This document shows, piece after piece, positions 19,544 through 44,172 of a stretch of DNA of 49,146 nucleotides. This DNA is from a virus. The first letter of the stretch is position 1; every line of letters starts with the position of its first letter. Location: positions 1 through 49,146 of the IMG/VR virus record IMGVR_UViG_3300014497_000003; one strand, given 5' to 3'. The position numbers and the translations under genes are program-made. The notes beneath the pieces are model-generated. The model did not search any database and had not been told where the DNA came from. It saw nothing but the letters and a program-made list of their open reading frames with translations.

Positions 19544-19570
19544 AACGGGCCTTAATTGGCCCGTTCTTCT
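19544..19570. terminator. Bidirectional terminator between portal and GIY-YIG genes
   Basis: AACGGGCC / GGCCCGTT eight-bp stem (19544-19551, 19558-19565). It follows the portal stop on the plus strand and overlaps the end of the minus-strand endonuclease gene. Confidence 0.7.
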
Positions 19571-20265
19571 ATATATTCCGAAACCGAAATATTCTTCATT
19601 ATCCATTCCGTGCATCCGTCGAACCCTTCCATGTTTGCGCTTTCGAATCTCTTGTGAGCCTCAATCTCTATCTCGTGAGCCTTGGACCCATGCATTTGCA
19701 GCAACTTGCCGACAGTGAATTTAAATGGAGTTGCGCGTCTTAGCTGAGAGAATCTTTGCTTTGGATGATTTGTGATGCCTATCTTGTAAAACCATCCACA
19801 CTCAGATTCTAGGAGATATAAGAATCCATCAATCGTCCTATTGAATCCGTTCCTAACGCATGCCTGACACCGCTCCTTGGAATTAAGGAATTTGTCTAGA
19901 TTCTTTATGTACTCACCATGAGTCTCGCATATAAGAGCGATTCGACTGCTAGATTTTCTCGTGTCATCAATCCATCGTGAAAACTTTATTCCCTCTGAGC
20001 CGCAGGCATCCTTAACCTTTTGCTCTACCTGCTCTCTTGTTGGGTGTATCAGCTTTTCAAGATTGACTCTTGCACACCTGGGGCATCCGCGATTCATCAA
20101 GAAGTGATTAATGTCTGTTGTGATCCATATTCCATGATCAGCGCACTCTAGTACACACTTTGTTTTGCTGCCAAGCCAATCGCCATCAAAGCCATGAAAT
20201 ACATAGCCTCTTTCTGGCGAAATAGCTTTCATTCTGTCAAATTGCTGATTATAAGATAGACGCAT
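19552..20265 (-). CDS. GIY-YIG homing-type endonuclease with zinc-ribbon repeats
   Basis: 237 residues. Two zinc-ribbon repeats (about residues 36-65: CADHGIWITTDINHFLMNRG then CPRC; about 110-137: CETHGEYIKNLDKF then CQAC) precede the GIY-YIG core (GFLYLLESECGWFYKIGIT, KQRFSQLRRATPF) and a C-terminal FDGCTEWIM. It is a paralogue of the 8347-9258 gene with one repeat fewer. It is placed between portal and MuF, reading against both. Expression should depend on the structured leader at 20272-20356. Confidence 0.8.
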   Translation of the reverse strand: MRLSYNQQFDRMKAISPERGYVFHGFDGDWLGSKTKCVLECADHGIWITTDINHFLMNRGCPRCARVNLEKLIHPTREQVEQKVKDACGSEGIKFSRWIDDTRKSSSRIALICETHGEYIKNLDKFLNSKERCQACVRNGFNRTIDGFLYLLESECGWFYKIGITNHPKQRFSQLRRATPFKFTVGKLLQMHGSKAHEIEIEAHKRFESANMEGFDGCTEWIMKNISVSEYIEERAN

Positions 20266-20271
20266 GCCGCT

Positions 20272-20356
20272 CTCATCAAGAGGTCATCGAAAGGATATGC
20301 GACAGTCACTGATGAGGTGATTTTCGGGTGGCCGCCCTAGTCGCATTGCCATTGTA
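20272..20356 (-). promoter_or_regulatory. Conserved pseudoknot leader of the GIY-YIG gene (copy 3)
   Basis: On the minus strand: -10 TACAAT (20356-20351), then TGCGAC (20345-20340) pairing with GTCGCA (20303-20298). Inside are a GGG/CCC hairpin (20337-20335, 20328-20326) and a TCAC/GTGA hairpin whose loop CTCATCA (20316-20310) is complementary over all 7 bases to TGATGAG (20278-20272). That last strand lies 6 bases before the ATG at 20265. It is homologous to the leaders at 40835 and 43438. Confidence 0.75.
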
Positions 20357-40815: not shown

Positions 40816-40834
40816 CCTGAAAAAGCACTCGTGA

Positions 40835-40917
40835 TATAATTGGATTTGCGGCTAGGCTGATCCCCGAACAGCGACTCATCATCGCTTGCCGCATACATCC
40901 GATAACCACATGATGAG
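40835..40917 (+). promoter_or_regulatory. Conserved pseudoknot leader of an HNH gene (copy 1)
   Basis: -10 TATAAT (40835-40840); TGCGGC (40847-40852) pairs with GCCGCA (40888-40893). Inside lie a short GG/CC hairpin with a conserved CCGAA and hairpin AGCGA/TCGCT (40870-40874, 40882-40886) with loop CTCATCA (40875-40881). The loop pairs over 7 bases with TGATGAG (40911-40917), 17 bases after the closing stem. That strand ends 10 bases before ATG 40928 and would serve as ribosome site. Confidence 0.75.
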
Positions 40918-40927
40918 TGCGTATCAA

Positions 40928-41587
40928 ATGAAAACCTGCTACAGCTGTCACCTCGAAAAACCACTATCAGAATTTCATAAAGATACGTCAAGAAAAGACG
41001 GATCTCAGCGTGCATGCAAGCCTTGCGTTTCAGCTATATCCGCAAAGAGAAGAGAAGCTAACAAGGAAAAGCTAAGAGCTCAGTGGGCGGCGTGGAGAGA
41101 TGCTAACAGGGAGCGAATTGCCGCGAATGGGAAAAGGTATAACCTTGAGAACAAGGATAAGGTTACCGAGTACCGAAAAAAATACTATGTAGAAAACAAG
41201 GAGAGCATCCTAGCAGTTGGCGCAAAGTACAGAGCCGACAATCCTGAAGCCCAGAAGGCTAGAAACGCAAGATGGGCAAAGGCTAATCCAGAGAAATGCG
41301 CAGCTAAAACCAGAAGGCGCCGAGCCCTAAAGATGGCGGCTGAAGGAACCCATACTAGGCAAGACATCGACAAGCTATTCCTTCTCCAAAAAGGAAAATG
41401 CGCGTCTTGCACTATCAAGCTGATCAAGTCAGGAAAAAACATATATCACGTCGACCACATAATGCCGCTGACAAAAGGCGGCGGTGATGGGCCTGACAAT
41501 CTCCAGCTTCTTTGCCCCGGCTGCAACATAAAGAAAAACGCAAAAGATCCGCTTGACTGGGCAAATGAAAACGGTAAACTCCTCTGA
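40928..41587 (+). CDS. HNH endonuclease (zinc-ribbon type)
   Basis: 219 residues. N-terminal Cys4 ribbon (MKTCYSCHLEKPLSEFHKDT, ACKPC), a long basic helical linker (about 45-145), then HNH: GKCASCTIKLIKSGKNIYHV, DHIMPLTKGGGDGPDNLQLL, CPGCNIKKNAKDPLDWA. Close paralogue of 43534-44172, especially at both ends. Start ATG 40928 matches the start of that paralogue; earlier ATGs at 40910/40913 overlap the pseudoknot strand and are less likely. Confidence 0.85.
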   Translation: MKTCYSCHLEKPLSEFHKDTSRKDGSQRACKPCVSAISAKRREANKEKLRAQWAAWRDANRERIAANGKRYNLENKDKVTEYRKKYYVENKESILAVGAKYRADNPEAQKARNARWAKANPEKCAAKTRRRRALKMAAEGTHTRQDIDKLFLLQKGKCASCTIKLIKSGKNIYHVDHIMPLTKGGGDGPDNLQLLCPGCNIKKNAKDPLDWANENGKLL

Positions 41588-43437: not shown

Positions 43438-43524
43438 ATTGTACAATAGGTGTGCGGATAGGACGGCCATCCGAAAGCCACCTTGTCAGTGGTTTCCGCA
43501 AATCCTTCGACAGCTACTGACAGG
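43438..43524 (+). promoter_or_regulatory. Conserved pseudoknot leader of an HNH gene (copy 2)
   Basis: Palindromic ATTGTACAAT (43438-43447) with -10 TACAAT; TGCGGA (43453-43458) pairs with TCCGCA (43495-43500); GGA/TCC hairpin (43461-43463, 43470-43472); AGCCAC/GTGGTT hairpin (43476-43481, 43489-43494) with loop CTTGTCA (43482-43488). The loop pairs with TGACAGG (43518-43524), one G-U included, 17 bases after the closing stem. AGG of this strand precedes the TTG start at 43534. Confidence 0.75.
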
Positions 43525-43533
43525 TACGCGCCA

Positions 43534-44172
43534 TTGAAATTGTGCACCAGATGTAATCTCGTACAACCAAAAACAGAATTCCACAAAAAAACAGCATCAA
43601 AGGATGGTCTTGCATGTCACTGCAAATCTTGTCTTTCTGCATATTTAAAAAAATATCATATGGAGAACAAATATAAAATCTCAGAACGGCAGAAAAAGTA
43701 CAACAAAGAGAATTACGATAAGTTGGCTAAGAGAAGAGAAGGAAATCCCTCCTATCGTGAGTATCAGAGAAAATACAGTCAGTTAAATCAGAACAGTCCG
43801 AAGAGGAAGGCTTGGAAGGAATTAAACAAGGAAAATATTGCAAAATACCGCGCCGAATACAATGCAAAAAACCCACAATATAGATATATCGCACGCTCAA
43901 GAAGGCGAGCAAAAATCGCACAAGCAGAAGGCAATCATTCGCTTGCTGACGTTATCTTGATTTTTTCACGCCAGCGGGGATTGTGCGCGACATGTGAGAA
44001 AAAGCTTTTCAAATCTGGCGCAAAGAAATATCACGTTGACCATGTGATTCCTCTAGCTAGAGGCGGAAGCAATTGGCCTAGCAATCTCCAGTGCCTGTGC
44101 CCGACCTGCAACATGCGAAAGGGTGCTAAAGATCCGCTAGATTGGGCAAAAGAAAATGGAAAACTTTTGTGA
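43534..44172 (+). CDS. HNH endonuclease (zinc-ribbon type), TTG start
   Basis: 212 residues. Cys4 ribbon (LCTRCNLVQPKTEFHKKTAS, CHCKSC), basic helical linker, HNH: GLCATCEKKLFKSGAKKYHV, DHVIPLARGGSNWPSNLQCL, CPTCNMRKGAKDPLDWAKEN. Paralogue of 40928-41587. No ATG lies near the start of the homology; TTG at 43534 aligns with the paralogue's ATG. A+T-rich. It sits between the minus-strand endolysin and the plus-strand 44235 gene. Confidence 0.8.
   Translation: MKLCTRCNLVQPKTEFHKKTASKDGLACHCKSCLSAYLKKYHMENKYKISERQKKYNKENYDKLAKRREGNPSYREYQRKYSQLNQNSPKRKAWKELNKENIAKYRAEYNAKNPQYRYIARSRRRAKIAQAEGNHSLADVILIFSRQRGLCATCEKKLFKSGAKKYHVDHVIPLARGGSNWPSNLQCLCPTCNMRKGAKDPLDWAKENGKLL

Follow-up and report, generated by a model that had tools for sequence, protein, structure and literature searches.

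The three RNA leaders that we located in the window, a complete IMG/VR virus record of 49,146 bases in which tape-measure, portal and terminase genes are present, are probably divergent members of the int-alpA family (RF02996) that work in cis as bistable switches of translation. The RNA family is already named; its anatomy and proposed function appear to be new. The leaders (40847-40917 and 43453-43524 on the plus strand, 20345-20272 on the minus strand) had a common layout, in which a -10-like hexamer was followed by the stem P1, a UA step, a short P2, GAA(A) and P3 with a 7-nt loop. On the 3' side P1 is closed, and a short linker leads to a complement of the P3 loop a few bases 5' of the start codon. 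The features are given here as read from the sequence unless other support is named; the covariance model R1 and the family-wide tests are described below.

43442..43447, plus strand: copy 2, -10-like hexamer TACAAT
43453..43500, plus strand: copy 2, int-alpA-like three-way junction (R1 61.4 bits, as a training member)
43453-43458/43495-43500, plus strand: copy 2, P1, with the UA step at 43459-43460
43461-43463/43470-43472, plus strand: copy 2, P2, with loop CGGCCA at 43464-43469 and GAA at 43473-43475
43476-43481/43489-43494, plus strand: copy 2, P3, with loop CTTGTCA at 43482-43488
43509..43513, plus strand: copy 2, strand A (putative decoy) GACAG, partner of the P3 loop (sequence; family-wide A-site test)
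43518..43524, plus strand: copy 2, strand B TGACAGG, partner of the P3 loop, overlapping the ribosome site (sequence; family-wide B-site test)
43534..44172, plus strand: copy 2, HNH endonuclease gene with a TTG start (PF14279 6e-12, PF01844 1.6e-11)
40835..40840, plus strand: copy 1, -10-like hexamer TATAAT
40847..40893, plus strand: copy 1, junction (int-alpA 22.8 bits, E 0.012; R1 49.8 bits)
40847-40852/40888-40893, plus strand: copy 1, P1; P2 at 40855-40856/40864-40865
40870-40874/40882-40886, plus strand: copy 1, P3, with loop CTCATCA at 40875-40881
40901..40903, plus strand: copy 1, strand A, degenerate (GAT)
40911..40917, plus strand: copy 1, strand B TGATGAG, partner of the P3 loop CTCATCA
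40928..41587, plus strand: copy 1, HNH endonuclease gene (PF01844 4.8e-11)
20351..20356, minus strand: copy 3, -10-like hexamer TACAAT
20298..20345, minus strand: copy 3, junction (Rfam int-alpA 35.8 bits, E 2.8e-6)
20345-20340/20303-20298, minus strand: copy 3, P1, plus the pair 20346:20297 (A20346-T20297)
20320-20317/20309-20306, minus strand: copy 3, P3, with loop CTCATCA at 20316-20310
20284..20288, minus strand: copy 3, strand A GATGA (sequence; family-wide A-site test)
20272..20278, minus strand: copy 3, strand B TGATGAG at the ribosome site (sequence; family-wide B-site test)
19552..20265, minus strand: copy 3, gene for a homing endonuclease with CapR and MUG113/T5orf172 (GIY-YIG superfamily; PF21817 4.9e-15, PF13455 1.8e-9, PF10544 2.1e-7)

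The first-pass annotation had placed three leaders at these sites, each with P1, P2, P3 and a P3 loop of 7 nt whose complement lies before the start codon, and all of this was recovered. The stems that it drew were present in every copy, except that P2 is down to 2 bp in copy 1 and P1 gains a seventh pair in copy 3, at a position that covaries across the family. Its pairing of the loop with the ribosome-site strand also held, but a nearer second partner had been overlooked (GACAG in copy 2, GATGA in copy 3 and the degenerate GAT in copy 1; in L201, a close relative of copy 1, strand A is an intact GATGA). With two partners competing for the P3 loop, the leader resembles a switch more than a simple block of the ribosome site. 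Pfam agreed that the downstream genes are two HNH and one GIY-YIG superfamily members. A weak R1 match of 12.2 bits opposite copy 1 (40829-40893, minus strand) is P1 read backwards and was taken as chance.

We analyzed the conservation of the fold beyond the window. A blastn search with the copy 2 region gave one match (5e-10), which covered the leader only and lay 5' of an annotated HNH gene in Pseudomonas phage PfAn1. Short patterns of the P2 region identified more than 100 viral stretches among the matches listed, a large part of them with the same layout, and a 70-sequence alignment, A1, was used to build the covariance model R1. Pair counts in A1 are biased because P1 and P3 pairing was required when the sequences were chosen. 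R1 scored the window copies, all of them in its training set, at 61.4 (copy 2), 58.6 and 49.8 (copy 1) bits; the PfAn1 match and the int-alpA scores of copies 3 and 1 given below do not depend on that choice of sequences. When only the P2 sequence was fixed, P1 was Watson-Crick at 6/6 positions in 79 of 146 non-redundant matches as compared to 3.1% with swapped partners (kinship ignored), in P1 sequences as different as AAAGGC/GCCTTT and GTTAGC/GCTAAC; under the same condition the mean P3 stem was 4.8 bp, against 2.1 bp in shuffled sequences. The outer pair -1:+1, which was never selected for, covaried with a mutual information of 0.95 bits, and pair 25:50 was G.U in some sequences and A.C in others, two similar wobble pairs replacing each other. 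A conserved aptamer-like core with covarying helices, as looked for in riboswitches, was thus found. The blastn leader match, R1, the P1 test and the Rfam score of copy 3 rule out a chance resemblance. The TGCG at the start of P1, considered as a sequence signal, was a product of the initial search pattern, and P1 varied freely when it was left unfixed; several early pattern matches (L002, L009, L041, L146 and similar ones) were chance. The idea of a conserved pseudoknotted leader was borne out, since covariation extends far past the three copies, and the covariance-model search that had been suggested as a check found further covarying copies in other phages.

Rfam describes int-alpA as type 'Gene; sRNA', with a model of 71 positions and a gathering cut-off of 35.8 bits. 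Copy 3 scored exactly at the gathering value (35.8 bits, E 2.8e-6) with permissive filters and was unlisted under default filters. Copy 1 reached 22.8 bits, below the cut-off, copy 2 gave no direct int-alpA match at E<=10 in the search with the Rfam model, and Rfam scans of the window alone returned no family. The better-scoring relative L003 reached 44.9 bits, and L468, L464, L465, L466, L412, L046, L087, L089, L105 and L110 also passed gathering. Copy 2 shares its P2 type with L105 (40.1 bits). R1 joins the window copies to the Rfam-positive sequences, as L003, L046, L087, L089, L105 and L110 are training members or matches of R1. The first-pass annotation had taken the leader for an unnamed family and had set comparison with Rfam as a check on novelty; the family proved to be RF02996, and the int-alpA matches of the relatives rule out a new, unnamed one.

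When copies 1 and 3 and L468 were aligned to the Rfam model, we found the order P1, UA, P2, GAAA, P3, linker and 3' A strand in agreement. Shared between the window leaders and int-alpA are the P1/P2/P3 junction, the conserved UA and (C)GAAAA, a linker rich in U and the 3' A-strand (the consensus ends in ...aAgGG). They differ in that Rfam treats int-alpA as an sRNA whereas the window copies stand as leaders 5' of homing endonuclease genes, and two of them, copies 1 and 2, score below the cut-off. The int/alpA gene context, as inferred from the family name, is not that of the window copies, which precede homing endonucleases. Strand B, the P4 hairpin and the alternative pairing fall outside the 71 positions of the Rfam model. 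The original description of int-alpA is reportedly that of Weinberg et al. in 2017. We found no function assigned to int-alpA in the literature; it has been named among putative small RNAs, without further study (PMC12370729).

The two partners of the P3 loop were assessed in a set of 102 relatives for which loop pairings were not a selection criterion. The loop scored 14.2 against strand A, which starts 3-18 nt past P1, as compared to 5.7 +/- 0.46 with swapped partners, and 12.6 against strand B, in the Shine-Dalgarno region, as compared to 8.1 +/- 0.40 (n=102 non-redundant, kinship ignored in both). Both sites occurred in 94/102, against 25 +/- 4 with swapped partners (kinship ignored), and in 87 of the 102 they shared at least three loop bases; judged by sequence, the two loop pairings would compete as mutually exclusive structures. 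Mean predicted duplex energies were -7.4 kcal/mol for A and -7.1 kcal/mol for B, with A stronger in 54 relatives and B in 34, and strand A was the better conserved partner (99/102). A P4 hairpin bracketing the Shine-Dalgarno was enriched (10.26 vs 8.18 +/- 0.21). Family-wide, the best -10 match peaked 10-13 nt 5' of P1, and the distance from the end of P1 to the start codon was mostly 31-40 nt. We also examined 40 int-alpA members picked by Rfam's own model from Pseudomonadota genomes, of which 40/40 carried strand A and 37/40 strand B. Mean scores were 15.3 vs 10.1 +/- 0.6 for A and 14.2 vs 11.3 +/- 0.5 for B with swapped partners (kinship ignored); the margin is smaller because the loops are alike, so that swapped partners also often carry both sites (24/40). 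The best start codon lay mostly a few bases 3' of B. Since the Rfam-picked members carry A, B and mostly an ORF after B, int-alpA is best read as a 5' leader.

The Rfam typing would instead make int-alpA a trans-acting small RNA whose proximity to ORFs is incidental. Two further observations agree with such a role: a terminator-like hairpin lies right after A, between A and B, in five relatives (L149, L174, L202, L219 and L043), and L470 has two tandem copies without an ORF. We consider a trans-acting RNA very unlikely, since the ORF starts at a narrow distance past P1, the loop tracks each gene's Shine-Dalgarno region, in the Rfam-selected members as well, and most copies have no visible terminator while an ORF follows strand B in nearly all members. 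We read int-alpA as a cis-acting and apparently bistable translation switch, not an sRNA. The hairpin between A and B is superfluous for a pure translation switch and counts against that reading; because this hairpin and its U-run sit between A and B, some members may also act on transcription. The hairpins with U-runs are at L149:364, L202:311, L219:1019, L174:2421 and L043:9141-9210, and these copies precede a phrog_6737-like gene family. The tandem copies of L470 (G856:C35:148-335, a Planctomycetota genome) are 120 nt apart with no clear ORF, and after one of them come three ACAGGT repeats, every one a complement of the loop.

In the mechanism that we propose, transcription would begin at about the first base of P1, as the position of the -10 indicates, and P1, P2 and P3 would form a three-way junction around the conserved UA/GAA(A) core. 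The P3 loop would serve as an internal anti-Shine-Dalgarno. Its pairing with decoy A, a few nt after P1, would leave the ribosome site free and the gene on, while pairing with strand B, the Shine-Dalgarno, which in many relatives lies inside the loop of the P4 hairpin, would hide the ribosome site and turn the gene off. Because the A and B pairings share loop bases and are of near-equal strength, a small push on the junction, by a ligand, a protein or self-association via P2, would be enough to decide the state. Mobile or tightly dosed phage genes, homing endonucleases among them, would carry the leader as an off-the-shelf control element. Sequence comparison supports the fold, both of the competing pairings, P4, the position of the promoter and the association with genes; that the A state is on, the B state off and the state set by an external factor is what we infer from them. 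The variety of genes argues against feedback by one protein family and against a pathway metabolite, and the host range favors a widely available or intrinsic signal. Against a switch stand the degenerate strand A of copy 1 and the copies without an obvious ORF (L470, L500).

Alternatively, the leader could act without switching, as a static brake or insulator whose fixed structure keeps the translation of mobile genes low and uniform. The hairpins that hide the ribosome sites of I-TevI, segB and mobE in T4-like phages (PMC2988022) are a precedent for a phage homing endonuclease whose ribosome site is concealed by RNA structure, and the leader accompanies mobile genes inserted in many contexts. 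The T4-type hairpins are simple and tied to early or late transcript start, whereas int-alpA leaders have a conserved junction and two loop pairings, predicted to be exclusive, across phages and genes. A fixed structure would not need strand A, yet A is better conserved than B and balanced with it, and the conserved junction core would be left unexplained; we regard this reading as rather unlikely. If the nascent RNA folded to A (on) and then relaxed to B (off), the leader would be a kinetic timer giving a burst of translation. The order of the sites, A always before B, and their near-equal strength suit a timer, but B is not consistently the stronger and neither the UA/GAA core nor the P2 loop pattern is accounted for, so that we give a timer little credence. 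Short helices that pair with the ribosome site would also suit an RNA thermometer; but the design recurs, with similar helix length, in a thermophile virus (Deep-sea thermophilic phage D6E) as well as in prophages of E. coli and phages of Vibrio, which are mesophilic, and this makes a thermometer exceedingly improbable.

If the leader is a switch, the P2 loops bear on what might set it. The loop tetramers are mostly self-complementary (GGCC, CGCG, GCGC, CCGG, AGCT, GATC) or are GACG. A palindromic 4-mer was present in 25/45 distinct phage P2 loops as compared to 11.2 +/- 2.6 in shuffled loops, and GACG in 26/40 canonical int-alpA members. Adjacent P2 loop bases covaried only among themselves, as GC or AU; with no correlated column elsewhere in the aligned core, pairing of the P2 loop with another region of the same RNA was rejected. 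The self-complementary loops hint that homodimers may be permitted. GACG loops have been implicated in retroviral RNA dimerization (PMC516450), and the palindromes and GACG tetraloops of retroviral dimer-linkage loops resemble the P2 loops of int-alpA (GACG in the canonical members above; GGCC, CGCG, GCGC, AGCU and GAUC in many others). Unlike the retroviral loops, those of int-alpA are known by loop sequence, and their dimerization may not occur. It is conceivable, though we think it unlikely, that int-alpA senses its own concentration, a P2-loop kissing dimer shifting the P3 loop between the decoy and the ribosome site. If true, translation of a selfish nuclease would follow transcript or genome copy number during infection.

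We classified 134 downstream ORFs by blastp clusters, Pfam and PHROGs, and ~45% fell in clusters matching HNH, GIY-YIG, T5orf172 or DUF723. The remaining ones were O-like replication initiators, DUF1376, primase-like, Rha, tail chaperone, scaffold and unknown genes; for ten genes that follow canonical int-alpA copies, Pfam was uninformative. The view that the leader travels with unrelated nucleases was confirmed (HNH_3, HNH, T5orf172/MUG113, GIY-YIG, DUF723). As a leader specific to homing endonucleases it did not stand, since other kinds of gene make up over half of those downstream; many homing endonuclease genes also lack it. In L431 and L444, which hold relatives of the endonuclease of L013, a different leader with core CGCAAG lies ~100 nt ahead of the start of the homing endonuclease gene. 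Its P3 loop (CTTATAC/CTTATTC) likewise has a pairing partner in the ribosome site, so that this may be another class of RNA built for the same output.

The family was found in phages and in bacterial genomes of several phyla. Carriers include Klebsiella phage 6991, Salmonella phages LPST49 and BIS08P22, Vibrio phages 1.087.A and VchM-138, phage D6E, Enterobacter phage Tyrion, Pseudomonas phage IME307 and Rhizobium phage X2_25. R1 matched 16/399 Pseudomonadota genomes and 28/294 genomes in the phylum of a Pirellulales genome (Planctomycetota); in the phylum of a Clostridia genome, only the centre genome itself matched among 399. The RNA is common, as the Rfam int-alpA cut-off was passed in 46/299 sampled Pseudomonadota genomes, and similar copies were present in 44/5426 E. 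coli genomes. In L409 (E. coli CFSAN064035, ~1498-1582) and L412 (Salmonella phage BIS08P22) the copy lies between a Rha/KilA-N gene and small near-terminase genes, and P22-like prophages and phages with a leader copy are a convenient laboratory test system. A WOR-3 MAG (L133) has two copies ~1 kb apart on opposite strands (137-207 and 1175-1240), each before a homing-endonuclease-like ORF.

In the translational riboswitches preQ1-II and SAM-II, a pseudoknot occludes the Shine-Dalgarno. The int-alpA leaders likewise have a compact junction or pseudoknot whose pairing would compete with ribosome binding, but no riboswitch family in Rfam matches them and their downstream genes share no pathway. 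A family named as an 'sRNA' is thereby recast as a testable candidate orphan translation switch, which may account for how phage genes, free-standing homing endonucleases included, restrain their expression. Because the leader is present in E. coli prophages and in a P22-like Salmonella phage, laboratory strains offer a place to look for the proposed switch and for what triggers it.
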